Positions 5,550-33,905 of a stretch of 36,349 bases of DNA are shown piece after piece. Location: assembly GCA_024400395.1 (NCBI GenBank), contig JAKSMW010000020.1:1-36349 (forward strand). Direction: 5' to 3'. The translations under genes were made by a program, and so were the position numbers. The notes under the pieces were generated by a model. It saw nothing but the letters and a program-made list of their open reading frames with translations. It made no database searches and was not told where the DNA came from. The stretch is from Bacteroidales bacterium (GTDB lineage: Bacteria > Bacteroidota > Bacteroidia > Bacteroidales > F082). Every line of letters starts with the position of its first letter. Position 1 is the first letter of the stretch.

Positions 5550-8500
5550 ATGTCCGAAGAAAAAACCATCAGATTATCAAAAGCCGCACGCGAGTTTAAC
5601 GTAGGTGCATCGACCATTGTGGAATTCTTATCGAAGAAAGGTCAGACCATTGACCCGTCACCTAACACGAAACTCACAGCGGAGCAATATGCCTTGGTCG
5701 TGAAGGAATACCATGGCGAGAAAGAAGTGAAGAAAAACGCCGACCAACTCGGCAACATGACATTCAAAGGCGAGACCGTCAGCGTGGAAGTGATAGACAA
5801 ACCTGTCGATGCTAATGAAGAGAAAGTCATTACGATAAAGACTAACTCCATCCCGGCAGAGGGAACGGATGCTACGGCGAAAGGAACCGTGGAAGATGTT
5901 AAAGAACCGGCCAGCAGACAGGCTGCGAAACCGAAGAAACCAACGGTCCAAGTCGTGGAAGAACCCGTCAAAGAAGCGGCGGTGGAATCAGTGAAAGAGT
6001 CCGCCACCGAAGAGAAGAAAGAGGTCGTGGAAGAGGTCAAGCCACAAGAGAAAGCCAAGGCCGAGCCTGAAGTTGAGAAACCAGTTGCAAAAGAGGCGGC
6101 AGAAGCCGTCAAACTGAACGTGGTCGGGAAAATCGAGCTTCCTGATGTGAAAAAAGCCAATAGTGAAAAAGGCAACGGACAGCCAAAGAACGAAGGCAAG
6201 AAAAACGAGAACCGTCAGCAGAAACCTGCACAGCAGCCGAAGCCACAGCAACAGAAACCCGCACAGCCGAAGCCTGCCCAACCTCAAGCGAAACAAGCTC
6301 AACAGCAGACGAAACCAACACAGCCACAACAGAAGCCAGCCCAACCTTCACAAGCTGACCAGAAAGCCATGGCTGCACAGGCGGCGAACACCGACAACCC
6401 CGTCAACTTCATCCCGACAAAGGTGAAGAAACTTGAAGGCCCTAACATCCTCGGCAAGATCGAGCTCCCTTCGGAACGCAAACCGAAAGGCAAGCCTGTT
6501 GAGACATCGGGTGACGAAAAGGCTTCCAAAGACAAGAAGAAAAAACGCAAACGCATAGGCAACAGCCCCGTTGATCCAAACGAGATCGCAAGGCAGGAGA
6601 AGCAGAAAGGCGGCAAGCAACAGGGTAAACAACAAGGCAAACAACAGGGGCAAGGCGGCAAACAGCAGGGGCAGAACGGCAATCAGAACAAGCCGGGCAA
6701 TGACAACCGCAACAAAGACCGCTTCAAGAAAGGCAAGCAACCGATAATCGAAGAGAAGACGGAACTCACCGACGAAGAAATCAAGAACCAGATCAAAGAG
6801 ACTCTGGCTCGTCTGAACCCGCTCGGTAAGTCGAAGACCTCAAAGCACCGCCGCGAGAAACGTCATAACATCCAGAACGAGCTTGAGGAGGAAAGAATGC
6901 ACGAAATGGAGGAAAAGAAGATCCTCAAGGTCACTGAGTTCGTCACCGCCAACGAATTGGCCACGATGATGAACATCCCTGTTACCAAGGTCATCGCCAC
7001 CTGCATGAGTCTCGGCATGTTCGTCTCCATCAACCAACGTCTTGATGCGGAGATTCTTCAGGTCGTGGCGGAGGAGTTCGGTTTCAGTGTCGAGTTCACG
7101 AGTATCGATGTCCAGGAGGCTCTCGCAGAAAACGACGAGCCTGACAATCCGGAAGACCTCGTCCCGAGAGCACCGGTCGTCACCGTCATGGGTCACGTTG
7201 ACCACGGCAAGACCAAGCTCCTCGACTATATCAGAAGCACCAACGTCGTGGCTGGCGAAGCCGGCGGCATCACACAGCACATCGGCGCATACGAAGTGAA
7301 GACCGCATCAGGCAAGAAAGTGACATTCCTCGACACTCCTGGCCACGAGGCGTTCACCGCCATGCGTGCCCGTGGAGCCAAGATCACCGACGTCGCCATC
7401 ATCGTCATCGCCGCTGATGACAGCGTGATGCCTCAGACCATCGAGGCTATCAACCACGCCCACGCCGCCAACGTGCCTATCGTCTTCGCTATCAACAAGA
7501 TAGACAAGCCGACCGCCGATCCGCAGAAGATCTACAGACAGCTCGCCGACATGAACATACTCGTCGAGGAATGGGGCGGAAAGGTTCAGTCACAGGAAAT
7601 ATCAGCGAAACAAGGCATCGGTGTCGATGAACTCCTTGAAAAGGTTCTTCTCGAAGCCGAGATGCTCGACCTCAAAGGCAACCCTAACCGTCTCGCCAAA
7701 GGCTCCGTCATCGAGTCGGCTCTCGACAAAGGACGCGGTTATGTCGCGAAAGTGTTGGTTCAAGAAGGCACTCTACGCGTTGGCGACATGGTCCTCGCTG
7801 GAACGACATACGGCAAGGTCAAAGCGATGTTCAACGAACGCAACCAGGCACTTAAGGAAGCCGGACCATCAACGCCATTGTTGTTACTTGGTCTGAACGG
7901 CGCGCCTCAAGCCGGCGACAACTTCAACGTCATGACCGACGAACGCGAGGTCAAAACCATCGCAAGCCGCCGTCTGCAGTTGCAGCGCGAACAAGGCATC
8001 CGCACACAGAAACATATCACTTTGGACGAAATCGGACGCCGCATCGCCATCGGCGACTTCAAAGAACTCAACATCATCGTCAAGGCTGACGTTGACGGCT
8101 CCGTCGAAGCTCTGTCCGACTCATTGCTGAAACTCTCAACAGAAGAAGTGCAGGTGAACATCATCCACAAGTCGGTCGGTGCCATCAGCGAGGCGGATAT
8201 CATGTTGGCATCAGCGTCCAACGCCGTCATCGTGGGCTTCAACGTCCGTCCGACGATGCAAGCACGCAAAATTGCGGAGCGTGAACAGATCGACATCAGG
8301 CTGTACTCCATCATCTACACCGCCATTGAGGAAATCAAGTCGGCTATCGAGGGCATGCTCGCCCCTGAAATTCAGGAGGTTGTCACATGCAACATCGAGA
8401 TCCGCGAGGTGTTCCACATCAGCAAGGTCGGAAACATCGCTGGCTGTATGGTCCTTGACGGCAAGGTCAACCGACAGACGAAGATTCGTCTCATCCGCGA

Positions 8501-8672
8501 CGGCATCGTGGTTCACACCGGCGCACTCGGCTCACTGAAACGTTTCAAAGACGACGTCAAGGAAGTCAGTGCCGGATTCGAATGCGGTCTTAACATCGAC
8601 AACTTCAACGACATCAAGGTCGGAGACATCATCGAAGGTTATCAGGAAAAAGAGGTTTCGAGGAAACTTTAG
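5550..8672 (+). CDS. infB: Translation initiation factor IF-2
   Basis: A 1040-residue GTPase that places initiator tRNA on the 30S subunit. It starts with an IF2N helical domain (about 1-50). A long K/E/P/Q-rich low-complexity linker follows (about 55-430, including [11 protein letters not shown] repeats), then a second IF2N domain (about 465-530). The G domain has GHVDHGKT (548-555), DTPGHE (595-600) and NKIDK (649-653). Domains II-IV and the C2 fMet-tRNA-binding domain end at [13 protein letters not shown]. It is larger than E. coli IF-2 because of the linker. It starts 61 bp after nusA and is followed by a strong terminator. Confidence 0.97.
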
Positions 8673-8703
8673 TAGAGAGTAAAATTTTTGATTTTATTAT
8701 TAG

Positions 8704-8744
8704 CTGGCGTGCGAATGTTTTCCTTTCGTGCGCCAGTTTTTTTT
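8704..8744 (+). terminator. Intrinsic terminator of the rimP-nusA-infB operon
   Basis: A 12-bp stem, CTGGCGTGCGAA (8704-8715) with TTCGTGCGCCAG (8725-8736, two G-T pairs), is followed by eight T (8737-8744). Its right arm and loop (TTTTCCTT..GTGCGCCAG) resemble the hairpins at 294-331 and 18250-18291, making it the third, diverged member of that family. Confidence 0.9.
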
Positions 8745-8794
8745 AGCAAAAATAAAGCCCCAAGCTAAACGTTATCACATTGTTTATCAAGGAT

Positions 8795-8926
8795 TTGAGA
8801 ATTTTTTCGTAAACATTTGAGAATTTTTTCTCAATAAATTGAGAATTTTCTGATAGAGATTTGAGAATTTTTTCTCAATGAATTGAGAATTTTTTCTCAA
8901 TGAATTGAGAATTTTATTTATCTTTG
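8795..8926. repeat. Six-unit 22-bp array of TTGAGAATTTT half-sites
   Basis: TTGAGAATTTT begins at 8795, 8817, 8839, 8861, 8883 and 8905, an exact 22-bp period. Units 2, 4 and 5 are full dyads (TTGAGAA-TTTT-TTCTCAA). Units 1, 3 and 6 keep only the left half. Units 4 and 5 are identical over all 22 bases. The sixth unit ends in the -7 box of the AAA ATPase gene (8919-8926). The T-tracts recur every two helical turns, so the region may be curved. Confidence 0.95.
8919..8926 (+). promoter_or_regulatory. -7 box of the AAA ATPase gene (TATCTTTG)
   Basis: A perfect TAnnTTTG that forms the last eight bases of the sixth 22-bp repeat. The start codon follows 24 bases downstream, giving a leader of about 18-20 nt. 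There is no TTTG -33 box; repeats 5 and 6 occupy that position. Confidence 0.75.
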
Positions 8927-8950
8927 CAGCGTAATTTAAGATAACACTCT

Positions 8951-10141
8951 ATGTATCAACGAAATCAATTTGAAACAATAACATCTCGCATTAAGGAAGA
9001 CAGGCACTTCATCCAGGTAATTGCAGGTCCGAGACAAGTTGGGAAATCAACTTTGATTAATCAAGTTTTGGAATCAATTGATATTCCATACCGTTTTTGC
9101 ACGGCTGACAGTGCCATGGCATCCAACTCCGGATGGATTACAGAGCAATGGGAGACGGCAAGGTCAAACATGGCTGCAAACAGCTTAAATGAGTATCTCC
9201 TTGTCATTGATGAGATTCAAAAAATATTCAACTGGAGCGAAGTTGTAAAGAAAGAATGGGATCAAGACAGCCTTAACAAGTTGAATATCAAGGTTGTACT
9301 TCTTGGTTCTTCGAGACTGTTATTAAAAAAAGGATTAACGGAATCACTTGCCGGCCGCTTTGAGATGATTCGGATGGGGCATTGGACTTTCAGTGAGATG
9401 CACGAAGCTTTTGGATGGGACATCAACCAATATATTTACTTCGGTGGCTATCCAGGATGTGCGTATATGATTGATAATGAGTCGCGATGGAAACAATACA
9501 TCATTGATTCCATCATTGAGCCGGCTATCGCAAAAGACGCTTTGATGACGGCTACTATTTATAAGCCAGCCTTGCTACGACAACTTTTCGAGCTTGGGTG
9601 CAGCTATTCTGGAGAACTGTTATCGCTTAACAAAATGTTAGGTCAGCTTGACGATGCCGGAAATGTCACGACATTAGCAGGTTATCTTGAAATATTGTCG
9701 GAATGTCACCTGATTAAAGGCTTGCAAAAATATGCCAATGACAATTCAAGAAAATACAACTCGATACCGAAATATCAAGTTTACAACCAGGCGTTGCTCA
9801 GTGTCTATAACGGACGTGGTTACGTGGAAGAGCGCACTAATCCAACCCGTTGGGGACGATGGACGGAGTCGGCGGTCGGAGCATATCTTGTGGGGCTTGC
9901 CGACCAATGTGATTACAAGGTTTATTATTGGCGCGAGAATTCAGACGAAGTCGATTTCATTCTCTCACGTAGAGAACGACTGATAGCCATTGAGGTAAAA
10001 AGCGGGAAAAGAACAACCAGCAACGGACTGACGGTATTCAGAGAGAAATTCTCACCAAAGAATTCAATCATTGTCGGTTCCGGTGGAATCCCAGTTGAAG
10101 AATTCTTACACTGGGATTTGGGGAAATTATTAGACAGCTAA
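8951..10141 (+). CDS. AAA ATPase with DUF4143 (PD-(D/E)xK-like) C-terminal domain
   Basis: A 396-residue predicted cytoplasmic protein. The N-terminal AAA_14-type ATPase shows Walker A GPRQVGKST (26-34), Walker B LLVIDE (83-88), a sensor-like VVLLGSS (115-121) and SLAGRFE with a candidate arginine finger R136. The C-terminal DUF4143 region has EVDFIL (D335) and IAIEVKSG (E348, K350), the D...ExK pattern of PD-(D/E)xK nuclease folds. Such ATPases are common, often in many copies, in Bacteroidota; their function is not established. The gene is monocistronic behind a 22-bp repeat array, its stop overlaps the convergent neighbour, and its sequence looks more AT-rich than infB. These points suggest an acquired or mobile gene. 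Autoregulation through the array is inference. Confidence 0.9.
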   Translation: MYQRNQFETITSRIKEDRHFIQVIAGPRQVGKSTLINQVLESIDIPYRFCTADSAMASNSGWITEQWETARSNMAANSLNEYLLVIDEIQKIFNWSEVVKKEWDQDSLNKLNIKVVLLGSSRLLLKKGLTESLAGRFEMIRMGHWTFSEMHEAFGWDINQYIYFGGYPGCAYMIDNESRWKQYIIDSIIEPAIAKDALMTATIYKPALLRQLFELGCSYSGELLSLNKMLGQLDDAGNVTTLAGYLEILSECHLIKGLQKYANDNSRKYNSIPKYQVYNQALLSVYNGRGYVEERTNPTRWGRWTESAVGAYLVGLADQCDYKVYYWRENSDEVDFILSRRERLIAIEVKSGKRTTSNGLTVFREKFSPKNSIIVGSGGIPVEEFLHWDLGKLLDS

Positions 10142-12765
10142 ATCTTCCCAAGCACCTTTACAATCTGTTCGCCCAAACCTATCGTGTAGCCCTGAAGCAC
10201 AAACACCACCTCGTTATTTGAGTTGGCGATGAGGAAGATTGGGAGACTCTTGTTTTGAAGTTTCATGTTTGAAACGACTTCAGAAAGCATTGTTCCGTTT
10301 TCAATGCCGAAAGTGATATTCGATGGTAACTCGTTGAAATTCTTCAATTTGAAGTTGTCAAGACTTTCTTCATCCTGGAAAACAAAAATCATGCTTCCGT
10401 TCCATTCCTCGAATTTGTCTTTCAAGATTGAGATGTCCTGCATGGCGTGAGTGGTCGGCTCGCTTCCTCCGTCAAGGAGACCGAGAACGTAGAAATTACG
10501 TCCCGCTATTTGAAGAAGGCTCCTATCTTCTTGAGAATCAACGGGAATGAAACGGTTTTCTGAATTGAAGTTGCCGATAATCTTAACGCCGTCAACAGGT
10601 TCGCGCATGACGAGTTCGACTTTAGTAATTTCCCCACTTTCAATGTTGAAGAAAACATTGTGATTCAACACGCTGCCGTCGGCGAGACGCGTGCCGGAAA
10701 TCATCACGTAATAACCGAGGTCGAGTTCGATGCCGCCGTCAGACATCAACTGCGAATACAGCATCCCGACATCCATGCCGGGATCTTTGTCGTCGTAAGC
10801 CAGCAAATCGAAAGTGTTCCCGTTGAATTTCTTAATCGTGAAATGTGAATAATATCTCGGATCCGGCATGTTTTGCGTCGGTTTGTAATCAATCACCAAA
10901 GTGCCTTTTTCGACTGTCGGTTGTTCTTCTTTTACATCAAAGTCAACATCAATCCATTGATTTTCAAAATATTGAACTTTTCCTGTGACAGGGTCAATCC
11001 TCGATGGGATGCCTGCGCTGCGAGCAATCGCCACAAAGAAAATGTCGCGGGAATGCGAGTCGGCGATATGCGACTTCAACACTCCGGTCGGAAGCATAGG
11101 AATGCCGCGGACATTCAATTCATCATTCACATTGATATTTTCCTTCACCCAGCGAATTACCGCCTCTGGATTTTCTCCGTTAAAATTCATCGAGACGAAC
11201 TGTTTCTTATACGGACGTATCATCTCATTGGAAACGCGCGGACAATAGACATATTCGTTGAACATCTCATCTGTCAAGCCGCAGTTGTCTTCGATTAAAA
11301 TGCGCTGGTCGAAATTGTCTTTCAAGACATCAAGCGAAACGTCACGCAAGTCCTTATCAGAAATCACATTCAGCAAGTCCCAAGCGTATTGTTCGTTTCC
11401 ATGAGCTTTCGCATAATCAACGAAATCTTTGATTGTCTGATAATTACCCCAGGTTTTAGCCATTATTTCCTTGACGTAATCACCTTCATTTTGAGCTTCG
11501 ACGCATTTTGCAATATAAGCGTTTCTGATTGAATCCTCATAAACGGCGCGGCGGTTGTTCACGTCGCGCATCTCCTTTGAAACCTCCGGGATGCGAGCTT
11601 TCTCCGCGGGAGGAACGATGTCAAAAGCCTCTTCAAACTCAACGTTTTCCGCCTGTTTAATTGTGATTGTAACGTTGTCAATATCGCCAATCTTCACGAC
11701 TTCATAACCGAATTTCCCGTCTTTCGATGCGTAGATCATCATTGTTCCGAGACCGGCGGTCATCCATGTGTCGCCGTTTTCGTCGGTGGTTTTTGAAGCG
11801 ACGGTGCAGAACTCGGCGTAGTTGTAAATCTTGAAATCGACTTTCGCATCAGCGACCGCATAGCCTTCGTTATCAACAACTTTAACATTCAATTTTGCTG
11901 TCTCGGCATAATTATAAACGACATTGATTTCCGTATGATTCGCCGTTCTCTCGATTACTTCCTCCGGTCCGTAATATCTCCCGAACACCCTTGTGTGCAG
12001 CAGCAGGCAGCGTGACGCTGGAGCGTCGAACCAACCCAAATCCAGCACCGGTTCCGGTTCGCAGGCACCGAGGAAATGCCATTCGCCGTCAACCCAGGCC
12101 TCGACCCAGGCGTGGTTGTCGTCGCAATGCGCCCATCGCGGCGTATAGACCTGCCTTGCCGGAATGCACACCGAGCGCAAGGCCGCCACCAAAAACGTCG
12201 ATTCCTCGCCGCAACGTCCCCAGGATGTCTTCACCGTTGCTAACGGCGAACTCGTCCTTGAATCCGAGCCTTTGTAGTTCGCTTTCTCGTGGCACCAATG
12301 ATTCACCTCAAGAACTGCATCATACATGGAGAGATTTCTCACTCTGTCTTTCAATTCCTCATAAAACACAAAACGCGAATCATCGAGATTCTCGTTGTTA
12401 ATCCGCACCGGCACCACAAAGTGATTGAACTCACGTTCAGGCACTTGCGCACCCCACGGCATTTCTTCCTTTGCCTTGAATGAAGCATTGATATTTTTAC
12501 GGAAATAATCGCCGTCGTAATCCGTGACATCGCACAATGGCATGTAGGCGTACATGAATTCCAACGCCTCACGTTCTTTCCCGTCAAGGTCTTCATTGAA
12601 AATGGAAAACAGATCCCCATTCGGCATCGCAGCCATCTTTGTATGCAAATCACGTTGAACGTCAATGCGTTGCGACTTATCAGAAATGAAATGCTGTTCT
12701 TTTGAACATGATGTCACGATTAAAACCGCGACAATTACCGTGATGATTTTTTTGATGCGTTTCAT
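10138..12765 (-). CDS. Transglutaminase-like lipoprotein
   Basis: An 875-residue predicted lipoprotein. A signal peptide ends in the lipobox VTSC (Cys20). The first domain is a transglutaminase-like (papain-fold) core with WGRCGEES (Cys185) and DNHAWVEAW (His218). The acidic third position probably falls in GACEPEP, giving a possible catalytic triad. A beta-rich carboxypeptidase-regulatory-like segment follows (about 285-375). A second transglutaminase-like repeat (LPTGVLKSHIADSHSRD..RSAGIPSRI) has lost the cysteine. The C-terminus (about 735-875) looks thioredoxin-like but has no CxxC. Role and substrate are unknown; a cell-surface protease or peptidase-like role is possible. The stop overlaps the stop of the convergent AAA gene. 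purA lies upstream on the same strand, 85 bp away. Confidence 0.8.
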   Translation of the reverse strand: MKRIKKIITVIVAVLIVTSCSKEQHFISDKSQRIDVQRDLHTKMAAMPNGDLFSIFNEDLDGKEREALEFMYAYMPLCDVTDYDGDYFRKNINASFKAKEEMPWGAQVPEREFNHFVVPVRINNENLDDSRFVFYEELKDRVRNLSMYDAVLEVNHWCHEKANYKGSDSRTSSPLATVKTSWGRCGEESTFLVAALRSVCIPARQVYTPRWAHCDDNHAWVEAWVDGEWHFLGACEPEPVLDLGWFDAPASRCLLLHTRVFGRYYGPEEVIERTANHTEINVVYNYAETAKLNVKVVDNEGYAVADAKVDFKIYNYAEFCTVASKTTDENGDTWMTAGLGTMMIYASKDGKFGYEVVKIGDIDNVTITIKQAENVEFEEAFDIVPPAEKARIPEVSKEMRDVNNRRAVYEDSIRNAYIAKCVEAQNEGDYVKEIMAKTWGNYQTIKDFVDYAKAHGNEQYAWDLLNVISDKDLRDVSLDVLKDNFDQRILIEDNCGLTDEMFNEYVYCPRVSNEMIRPYKKQFVSMNFNGENPEAVIRWVKENINVNDELNVRGIPMLPTGVLKSHIADSHSRDIFFVAIARSAGIPSRIDPVTGKVQYFENQWIDVDFDVKEEQPTVEKGTLVIDYKPTQNMPDPRYYSHFTIKKFNGNTFDLLAYDDKDPGMDVGMLYSQLMSDGGIELDLGYYVMISGTRLADGSVLNHNVFFNIESGEITKVELVMREPVDGVKIIGNFNSENRFIPVDSQEDRSLLQIAGRNFYVLGLLDGGSEPTTHAMQDISILKDKFEEWNGSMIFVFQDEESLDNFKLKNFNELPSNITFGIENGTMLSEVVSNMKLQNKSLPIFLIANSNNEVVFVLQGYTIGLGEQIVKVLGKI

Positions 12766-18244: not shown

Positions 18245-18296
18245 AAGTGGCTGGCGCACGAGGTTTTTCTTCCTTGTGCGCCAGCCACTTTTATCT
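18245..18296. repeat. Hairpin, copy 2 of a repeated inverted element
   Basis: AAAGTGGCTGGCGCAC (18245-18260) pairs with GTGCGCCAGCCACTTT (18276-18291), a 16-bp perfect stem extended by A-GG/CC-T pairs, with T-rich sequence after it on the plus strand. It lies between lgt and gap and probably terminates lgt transcription. It matches the minus strand of 294-335 almost base for base. Confidence 0.85.
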
Positions 18297-18349
18297 CTCA
18301 TCTTTCATCTTTCATCTCTCATCTTTCATCTTTCATCTCTTAACTTTCC
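18294..18349. repeat. Heptanucleotide array at the 3' end of lgt
   Basis: Eight 7-mers in phase: TCTCTCA, TCTTTCA twice, TCTCTCA, TCTTTCA twice, TCTCTTA and ACTTTCC. The last ones overlap the lgt 3' end, and a repeat unit supplies its TGA stop (18335-18333). Confidence 0.9.
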
Positions 18350-19199
18350 TCTTCACTTCTGCGACTTTGAATTTCCCTTTTAGCGCCAGCACCATAATCA
18401 CTATCCCGGCGATGAAGAACGGTATGCTGAGCCACTGTCCCATGTCGAGTGTCATTGAATTTTCAAACTCAACTTGTGGTTGTTTGATGAATTCAATGAT
18501 GATTCTTGAACCGAAAATCATTAAAAGGAAGAAACTGAAGAAGAATCCCGGATATTTGTTGACGGTGTCTTTTTTGAAGAAAAGACGGAGAAGTATCACG
18601 AAGGTGATGATGCAGAACAACGCCTCGTAAATCTGTGTCGGGTGACATGCCGGGATTGCGTCGATTGGCGTTCCGGGTGCCCATTCGCGTACGAACTTGA
18701 ATCCCCACGGAAGCGTGGTCGCGTCGCCGTAAATCTCTGAGTTCATGAGGTTTCCGATGCGTATCAACGCGCCGCCTATCGCCACGCAGATGACAAGCCT
18801 GTCGAGCACCCATAGGAACGGCTTGCCGAGTTTCTTGGAATAGATGTACATGCCGATGAGTATTCCGATGGCGCCGCCGTGACTGGCGAGACCGCCTTCC
18901 CATACGGCGAGAAACTTTATCGGATTGGCGAAATAATACGCAGGCTCGTAGAAAAGACAGTGGCCGAGGCGTGCGCCGACGATGGTGAAAACCAACATGT
19001 ACATGAGAATCTTGTCGGCCCATTCCTCACCGAGGCCTTCTTTCTTGAAGATGGCCTTTATCAGATAGTAACCGATGATGAAAACCATCGCCCAAAGCAG
19101 TCCGTACCATGCCACCGGATGCCCGCCAAGCAACGGGAATTTCTCCGGAAAAACGAAGATGTATGGGTTGACATCCCAAACGATAAAACCTAAATTCAT
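18333..19199 (-). CDS. lgt: Prolipoprotein diacylglyceryl transferase
   Basis: A 288-residue inner-membrane enzyme that transfers diacylglyceryl from phosphatidylglycerol to the lipobox cysteine of prolipoproteins. Several hydrophobic helices surround family motifs: HPVAWYGLLWA (about 25-35), EGGLASHGGAIG (about 99-110), the Lgt signature RIGNLMNSEIYG (about 142-153), ACHPTQIYEAL and SRIIIEFIKQPQ. The basic C-terminus (VKRKVKR) runs into the heptanucleotide array. The gene starts 8 bp after the upstream glycosyltransferase, so the two are cotranscribed. Confidence 0.96.
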   Translation of the reverse strand: MNLGFIVWDVNPYIFVFPEKFPLLGGHPVAWYGLLWAMVFIIGYYLIKAIFKKEGLGEEWADKILMYMLVFTIVGARLGHCLFYEPAYYFANPIKFLAVWEGGLASHGGAIGILIGMYIYSKKLGKPFLWVLDRLVICVAIGGALIRIGNLMNSEIYGDATTLPWGFKFVREWAPGTPIDAIPACHPTQIYEALFCIITFVILLRLFFKKDTVNKYPGFFFSFFLLMIFGSRIIIEFIKQPQVEFENSMTLDMGQWLSIPFFIAGIVIMVLALKGKFKVAEVKRKVKR

Positions 19200-30932: not shown

Positions 30933-30940
30933 TTTTATGG

Positions 30941-31018
30941 GTGTTTAAGGAGTTTAAGGTGTTTGAGGAGTTTTAGGTACCTAAATACCTTAAACACCTA
31001 ATCACCTCAATCTCCTGA
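30941..31018. repeat. Nonanucleotide inverted array between SDR and VOC genes
   Basis: Four 9-mers in phase (GTGTTTAAG, GAGTTTAAG, GTGTTTGAG, GAGTTTTAG; 30941-30976) are followed by related units in inverse orientation (TAAATACC, TTAAACACC, TAATCACC, TCAATCTCC). A palindrome TTTAGGTACCTAAA lies at the junction. The whole can fold as a long hairpin. Confidence 0.85.
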
Positions 31019-33359: not shown

Positions 33360-33803
33360 ATGATGGTAATTAAGGAGATCGCTGTTTATACTAACATCTT
33401 GAATTGCAGGATAAAAAAGTATTTCGCCGATATTTTGAACAAAAACAACATTAATCTGACGCCGGAACAGTTCTTGGTGATGGATTGGCTTTGGAAAGAA
33501 CAGGCAATTTCACAGCAGAGGATTGCAGAGGTCATTCAAAAAGACAAAAATTCAGTTACGAAATTCATTGATTCTCTCGAGAAAAAGAATTTGGTTTACC
33601 GCACTGTCGATAAAGTTGACCGCAGAATCAACAAGGTTGCGCTTACGCAAGAAGGCATCGATATGGAACTTGCGACCACCGAAGTGGCGATAGATTTCAT
33701 GAACGACGTGGTCAAAGGCATTGATGAAAATGACCTGAAGACGTTTGTGAAAGTGTCGCTGCAAATGAAAGAAAATTTGGAAAGAAACGAGAAGAAGAGT
33801 TGA
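33360..33803 (+). CDS. MarR-family transcriptional regulator
   Basis: A 147-residue winged-helix regulator. The recognition-helix region is ISQQRIAEVIQKDKNSVTKFID (50-71) and the wing is DRRINKVALT (87-96), with helical dimerisation segments at both ends. I start at ATG 33360 because the -7 box (33328-33335) lies inside the longer frame and AGGA sits at 33337-33340. The stop codon TGA (33801-33803) is part of the first heptanucleotide of the array that follows. It could regulate the lipid locus upstream or the GH2 gene downstream; the ligand is unknown. Confidence 0.88.
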   Translation: MMVIKEIAVYTNILNCRIKKYFADILNKNNINLTPEQFLVMDWLWKEQAISQQRIAEVIQKDKNSVTKFIDSLEKKNLVYRTVDKVDRRINKVALTQEGIDMELATTEVAIDFMNDVVKGIDENDLKTFVKVSLQMKENLERNEKKS

Positions 33804-33905
33804 GAGAGGAAAGAGGAAAGTTGAGAGAGGAAAGTTAAGAGAGGAAAGTTGAGAGAGGAAAGTTGAGAGAGGAAAGAGGAAAGTTAAGAGAGGAAAGAGA
33901 GGAAA
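33799..33905. repeat. Heptanucleotide array, 14 units
   Basis: Fourteen 7-mers in perfect phase (33799-33896), drawn from only three words: GAGGAAA, GTTGAGA and GTTAAGA. An imperfect GAGAGGAAA follows. The strand is almost purely purine apart from the T of GTT. The first unit contributes the stop codon of the MarR gene. Confidence 0.95.

Follow-up and report, generated by a model that had tools for sequence, protein, structure and literature searches.

Phased palindromic repeats at the promoters of DUF4143 ATPase genes suggest self-switching through private DNA addresses

Plasmid iterons are phased direct repeats of about 22 bp that lie beside the gene of a self-regulating winged-helix Rep initiator, and AAA+ proteins of the Orc1/Cdc6 type have adjacent origin boxes. 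A reminiscent arrangement of repeats and gene is described here for a stretch of 36,349 nucleotides (hereafter the window, meaning the whole stretch analysed) from a Bacteroidales bacterium (assembly GCA_024400395.1, contig JAKSMW010000020.1, positions 1 to 36,349, forward strand). In it, an array of six TTGAGAATTTT half-sites (8795..8915, + strand) lies at the promoter of a gene (8951..10141, + strand) for an AAA_14/DUF4143 ATPase of 396 residues, which falls into PADLOC class PDC-S01. Comparison with related genes, both in the same assembly and in other phyla, suggests that each of the DUF4143 proteins, a very widespread yet unstudied group, switches the gene encoding it by way of a private DNA address. 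The defence role of the window gene is a matter of database classification alone. One paper ranks PDC-S01 fourth among the defences of prokaryotes by frequency and notes that most candidates of this kind still await experimental validation (PMC12988326). An operator array is not mentioned for PDC-S01 in the consulted portions of that paper and of PMC13356809, and the literature found on DUF4143, COG1373 and PDC-S01 holds, in the parts consulted, no description of promoter arrays at these genes.

By likeness, the nearest characterised precedent found is RptR, which represses its own defence-island promoter, that of a type I restriction-modification system, via three palindromic direct repeats (PMC12255303). 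Several palindromic direct repeats stand at the -10 position in both cases, by a locus of defence type (a putative one in the window), and site and gene are conserved together. RptR, however, is a dedicated 9-kDa repressor with one shared TAGCTA site, whereas here regulator and effector would be a single 396-residue ATPase-nuclease, and the sites of the paralogues are mostly their own, with units two or three helical turns apart; both the protein family and the site differ from those of RptR. In contrast to iteron plasmids, the window is a chromosomal contig on which the repeats accompany an AAA+ plus nuclease protein with no replication function seen. No Rep-family gene stands behind the repeats, the Pfam scan of the window protein having returned AAA_14 and DUF4143 and no Rep domain, and the array is placed between infB, upstream of the window gene, and a convergent transglutaminase-domain gene downstream of it. 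With the Orc1/Cdc6 proteins the locus shares an AAA domain followed by a winged helix (here a putative one) and repeats beside the gene, but the window protein has a DUF4143 nuclease domain, the array is on the promoter and there is no evidence of an origin. A weak sequence match (E 0.051) was obtained between the window protein and chain 2fna, which we take to be a chain of the AAA+ ATPase SSO1545. As regards dispersed repeats, BrickBuilt also consists of intergenic 23-nucleotide tandem repeats in a Bacteroidota genome; it is one element with 19 copies in ATCC 33277, whereas here many differing arrays stand at one gene family (PMC4596501). The TAACTGA heptamer repeats of Beggiatoaceae, which are also found in five Bacteroidetes, are short direct repeats upstream of start codons too but, unlike the DUF4143 arrays, are not bound to one gene family (PMC4679880).

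The six half-sites of the window start at 8795, 8817, 8839, 8861, 8883 and 8905, a spacing of exactly 22 bp in all five intervals, and three of the six units are complete 7-4-7 dyads of the form TTGAGAA-TTTT-TTCTCAA, namely units 2 (8817..8834), 4 (8861..8878) and 5 (8883..8900), to which no strand is assigned. Downstream of the array the octamer TATCTTTG (8919..8926, + strand) fits TAnnTTTG and, leaning on the -33/-7 consensus, is presumably the -7 box; the ATG follows at 8951. Half-sites, dyads and -7 box were all found where the original prediction, made from the letters of the window alone, had placed them. Its claim that the array fills the -33 region was also borne out: the final half-site begins 14 bp ahead of the -7 box, therefore the array occupies that region in place of a -33 box, and no TTG was present 19-21 bp upstream of the -7 box when the sequence was read directly. 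The pattern TTGAGAA-N15-TTGAGAA gave six matches in the window (five on the + strand and one on the - strand) whereas 100 dinucleotide shuffles averaged 0.00; the pattern marks one site in the window's own assembly (2.12 Mb, 83% complete), where the reversed-pattern control gave none. An Rfam scan of 8000-10500 returned no family at gathering score; two sub-threshold matches, one in the gene on the minus strand (E 0.86) and the other in infB (E 0.42), do not touch the array.

The predicted AAA_14/DUF4143 identity of the gene product and its D...ExK motif held as well. Pfam matches above cut-off were obtained for AAA_14 (6.6e-22) and DUF4143 (9.6e-22), and the PDC-S01 profile covers nearly the whole length of the protein (7.7e-180). 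Across 49 aligned sequences, the window's included, residues G26, R28, Q29, G31, K32 and T34 of Walker A (GPRQVGKST, residues 26-34, 9026..9052, + strand) are invariant, as are D87 and E88; in the nuclease-type motif D335...E348-V-K350 (9953..10000, + strand) D335 and K350 are invariant and E348 is nearly so. With the Walker A/B and D...ExK residues thus retained, the window protein is placed among the AAA_14/DUF4143 proteins. A putative winged helix-turn-helix at residues 205-262 (9563..9736, + strand), recognised by inspection, is proposed as the reader of the array.

When TTGAGAATTTT-N11-TTGAGAATTTT was searched for in 149 genomes of the family, 21 sites were found in 20 genomes, all belonging to the window's genus, and the reversed control gave none. 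Twelve of the 21 sites lie directly before an intact cognate homologue (59-100% identity), one precedes a DUF4143 gene of another clade (L137) and one array ends at a contig end (L144); the others are taken up below. A search allowing three mismatches in seven of those genomes produced 23 matches, of which 21 fall in known arrays, one belongs to the array of an additional cognate gene (L313 in G116) and one is a stray. Solo sites aside, the genomes searched showed neither close homologues without the array nor a spread of the array before unrelated genes. TTGAGAA is the address of the sub-clade of the window gene and not a mark of DUF4143 genes: the expectation that TTGAGAA arrays would precede DUF4143 genes stood for this sub-clade but not for the other paralogues, which carry other arrays. 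Between the window and L038, none of 66 half-site positions is variable compared with 15 of 55 spacer positions (Fisher p 2e-6). With half-sites kept, spacers drifting and the array following the gene across species, the earlier suggestion of a protein-binding array that may control one gene gains support.

The window's own assembly has 34 PF13635 (DUF4143) matches, and reading of the upstream regions of 30 of them revealed arrays of differing sequence at most. Comparison of 250 bp upstream with dinucleotide shuffles gave a tandem repeat at p<=0.005 for 29 of the 32 testable DUF4143 genes against 17 of 133 control genes (Fisher p 4e-17), the controls being genes with an upstream gap of at least 100 bp from 20 stretches. 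Among the 29, the repeat at L008 is a simple, dispersed one, and the passing controls are, by eye, mostly simple repeats, three of them preceding a gene family with an MKYPIG start. The array units of the assembly's DUF4143 genes are mostly distinct with some relatedness left, similarity at a score of 11 or more being found for 20 of 378 unit pairs (5.3%) and 3 of 400 shuffled pairs (0.8%). Periods of 22-23 bp were observed in 56, and of 32-34 bp in 49, of the 118 genes with p<=0.01 (12 genes found by pattern excluded), equal to two and three helical turns. Of the array-bearing genes, which number 124 and come almost entirely from Bacteroidota, 115 have TAnnTTTG close to the start (within 130 bp), with the array upstream of it in 79, overlapping it in 31 and downstream in 5.

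Relatives of the window gene were drawn from GTDB genomes at 74 named loci (98 to 43% identity). The three closest come from one Bacteroidia metagenome-assembled genome (MAG) and two horse-faeces Bacteroidales MAGs, others from MAGs named for ruminant gut, and further ones from MAGs labelled Verrucomicrobia, Desulfobacterales, Gemmatimonadetes, Beta- and Gammaproteobacteria, Ignavibacteria, Sumerlaeota and Acetothermia. The promoters of the nearest relatives carry TTGAGAATTTT and those of others TTGAACATTTT, AATCGCAGATTTT or TTTGAAGATTTT, while TTGAGTA/TACTCAA dyads, for example TTGAGTAAATTTACTCAA, are present at the promoters of many relatives outside Bacteroidales (homologues of 43-50% identity in other phyla). 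At L093, L095, L101 and L103 the promoters have TTTTGTAAAATA-like repeats, and the putative recognition helix of the proteins reads PTISSYL or PTIGSYL, compared with mostly TTL[AVS]xYL in the others. A strict test (the core with a 22-bp repeat or a dyad) was passed by 44 of 69 named relatives and 2 of 267 own-genome control genes; its core pattern was composed after the sequences had been seen, and the 25 misses include visible variants. Outside Bacteroidota, a dyad or repeat at p<=0.005 was detected in the last 130 bp before 28 of 48 DUF4143 genes (29 plus 19 from named-relative loci, with L287, which has 5 bp upstream, left out) against 8 of 90 controls drawn at random from the same loci (Fisher p 7e-10). 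The nine genomes reached via loci labelled as other phyla have 1 to 34 DUF4143 matches each and 72 in total, of which 30 were read. Neighbouring genes were clustered in 50 loci of at least 8 kb and, the two largest clusters aside, none was common to more than five loci; therefore no other cis-encoded binder is apparent. Both of the largest clusters contain the main gene, the second one (13 proteins from 12 loci, three at the place of the main gene) possibly holding overlapping frames. As separate observations, G170, the genome of L097 (labelled Longimicrobiales, outside Bacteroidota), has 34 DUF4143 matches in 4.5 Mb, and the promoters of L060 and L061 show AAAGTTGCGGAATAA-like repeats, as at paralogue L017, upstream of their cognate TGAACATTTTT repeats, an order that would fit the replacement of one module by another at a single promoter.

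Operators were also compared with the identity of the encoded proteins, for which periods under 20 were dropped (129 genes reduced to 125) and the 12 pattern-found genes excluded (leaving 113 of the 125). Similar units were shared in the 80-95% bin of protein identity by 16 pairs out of 20, in the 60-80% bin by 65 out of 113, in the 50-60% bin by 63 out of 416 and below 50% by 111 out of 5764. Above 95% the figure is 9 of 15, several failures being cases in which a wrong periodic segment had been chosen and not the promoter array. With the pattern-found genes included, the bins read 16/22 (>95%), 20/24 (80-95%), 148/231 (60-80%), 112/617 (50-60%) and 156/6856 (<50%). The overall Spearman correlation between operator similarity and protein identity comes to 0.087, a weak value that reflects the unrelatedness of most pairs, hence the use of binned counts. 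With identity controlled, the best-scoring part of the protein lies in the putative winged helix, both in the 23-bp clade (partial r 0.24) and in the window clade (0.36). Where pair identity is middling, pairs with a shared operator are more alike in the winged helix-turn-helix core than pairs without one, the excess identity being 0.086 and 0.039 in the two clades. None of the other regions tested gave as large an excess (in the second clade the margin is narrow), whereas the AAA domain goes the opposite way (-0.034 and -0.020). For the winged-helix analyses nine window-clade loci were dropped for a wrongly chosen segment, and those of the window clade include pattern-found genes. A residue-to-base code, sought by eye, did not emerge, V238 being present alongside TTGAGAA as well as TTGAACA operators.

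Taken from sequence comparison, these findings point to the array as the cognate operator of the DUF4143 ATPase gene behind it, the encoded protein binding there and repressing its own gene, a reading to which we give a probability of roughly 0.7. The DUF4143 protein would probably bind the TTGAGAA dyads and half-sites via the winged helix-turn-helix located between its AAA and nuclease domains. One unit per two helical turns would bring several copies side by side on one face of the DNA, an anatomy like that of a cooperatively read operator; with the -33/-7 region beneath the bound copies, the gene would repress itself. We infer that self-repression may be lifted by titration, consumption or remodelling of the protein. 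A common design with a differing address at many paralogues would leave the circuits largely insulated from each other.

A number of results weigh against such autoregulation. Four of the 21 TTGAGAA sites stand before a remnant of the cognate gene: at L142 a fragment of residues 229-394, and at L149, L152 and the G143:C72 site (L234) one common short 3' remnant, recognised by eye. Three more sites (L138, L153 and L135) are solo with no gene behind, so that, while repeats and dyads sit on the gene's own promoter and follow it across species, seven of the 21 sites are without an intact gene. In the trio with the common remnant, variable positions number 0/44 in half-sites, 3/33 in spacers and 80/410 in flanks, the chance of 0/44 being about 7e-5 at the flank rate and about 0.015 at the spacer rate; the half-sites are invariant though no homologue was detected in G110 (at E<=1e-30) and the homologue in G128 has a different operator. 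The third genome of this trio, G143, has a TTGAGAA-type gene elsewhere. The invariance is not predicted by a pure model of cis-autoregulation; array homogenisation by unequal exchange, or incomplete genomes, are possible explanations. The gene-bearing trio L136/L146/L151 (half-sites 0/33, spacers 0/22) shows no special constraint on half-sites, and these are not set apart from spacers in the solo pair L247/L248 either (half-sites 1/44, spacers 1/33, flanks 48/407). Furthermore, the tandem-repeat test was passed by just 38 of 76 genes at the loci of the named relatives and just 44 of 74 family-search genes from other genomes; a further 12 of 12 pattern-found genes pass, giving 56/86, and do not count as evidence. 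TAnnTTTG is also common amongst the controls (81/133). The effect of the winged helix-turn-helix is modest, the best-scoring region lies elsewhere in two smaller groups (L034 and L018), and in the window clade the C-terminal tail has an excess (0.038) close to that of the winged helix; as the protein/operator pairs are not independent, p-values for these regional excesses are not to be taken at face value.

Part of this evidence would suit an array that serves as the operator of another trans-acting host regulator or nucleoid protein, the DUF4143 protein not being the binder. Solo arrays persist, some in genomes without a detected cognate gene, and at L137 a gene of another clade stands behind a TTGAGAA array. 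This explanation nevertheless appears unlikely: the many arrays per genome would need as many dedicated regulators, no neighbour gene is shared in cis, operator similarity drops with the identity of the encoded protein, and related sites accompany the relatives of the window gene in other phyla. An initiator-like role, in which the AAA/winged-helix protein assembles on the phased repeats for a purpose beyond repression (origin firing, pairing or marking of loci, or transposition), draws on the resemblance of iterons to the array in repeat length and phasing, on weak sub-cut-off Pfam matches of the window protein to TniB (1.1e-4) and ATPase_2 (7.2e-5), on the solo arrays conserved in one trio and on the grouping of the archaeal ATPase SSO1545 with Cdc6/Orc1 (PMC4599002). 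It is considered distinctly unlikely, given that the arrays sit at the gene's own promoter, that many distant relatives have one or two dyads only, as repressor operators do, and that the neighbour test showed no shared replication neighbour.

Spread of the array as a minisatellite or a repeat like a miniature inverted-repeat transposable element (MITE), placed before the gene by accident, has a known parallel in BrickBuilt, a 23-nucleotide minisatellite MITE of Porphyromonas gingivalis (PMC4596501), and dispersed 23-bp arrays and simple repeats do occur in control stretches of the assembly. The enrichment at one gene family in several phyla makes it very improbable, and this reading was also disfavoured on account of the single array site in the assembly and of the constraint on half-sites but not spacers between the window and L038. 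More doubtful than autoregulation as such is an extension of it, according to which the DUF4143 repertoire would amount to up to dozens of largely insulated protein-DNA address pairs per genome, each ATPase-nuclease would read its own phased array only and the arrays would be more than operators, for example docking or sensing platforms that keep the nuclease inactive until infection. Platforms of this kind would explain orphan arrays with invariant half-sites after deletion of the gene, as well as a matching two-unit array before a viral open reading frame (L134).

PDC-S01 members often have an address of their own at their promoter, which provides a ready candidate DNA ligand for each protein, opens autoregulation, specificity and induction to direct testing, and supplies many mostly distinct protein-DNA pairs as material for a recognition code. 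The results also suggest that the functional unit is the array plus the gene.

The gene stands behind infB in the window and in L253, whereas in L254 (93% identical over the infB query) the transglutaminase gene comes immediately after infB; the loci differ in having or lacking both the array and its gene. A homologue was seen at infB in two of the 30 infB loci read, the window's own among them, and in G083 and G104 the coordinates also place the array start less than 100 bp away from the infB match; therefore the site is common to at least four of the 72 genomes in which infB was matched. At L237:1126-2748 it was observed that a second DUF4143 gene with its own array adjoins a TTGAGAA array and gene remnant; on either side lies an imperfect duplication of some 48 bp, present in single copy in L251, as though an array with its gene had been inserted.

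Viral contigs were also surveyed. A phage origin of the gene was considered and set aside: a scan of IMG/VR with the window protein, consisting of six exact peptide patterns, returned nothing, and no exact match in viral contigs was obtained with two other paralogue arrays and the TTGAGTA dyad pattern. One of the four viral contigs found by the array pattern (L132), however, encodes a homologue of 62.5% identity behind the array. On another, an IMG/VR contig of 116 kb, two TTGAGAATTTTGTA units 22 bp apart (L134:5846-5881) form an array that ends at the ATG of a viral open reading frame without a PHROG match; a homologue of the window gene was absent from the 6.2 kb part of this contig examined.

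Other repeats were encountered in the course of the survey. In the window's own genome, the MKYPIG-start gene family has simple AACTTT-type repeats just before the promoter in all three copies seen (L114:766, L121:6974-8531 and L123:6839), and a 23-bp AACTCGTGTAACTTGTGTTAAAA-like array, resembling a dispersed minisatellite, stands before three unrelated genes (L113:12072, L115:7311-7935 and L122:453). Within the window itself, Tandem Repeats Finder located simple tandem repeats at 18288-18353, 30940-30978 and 33789-33905.
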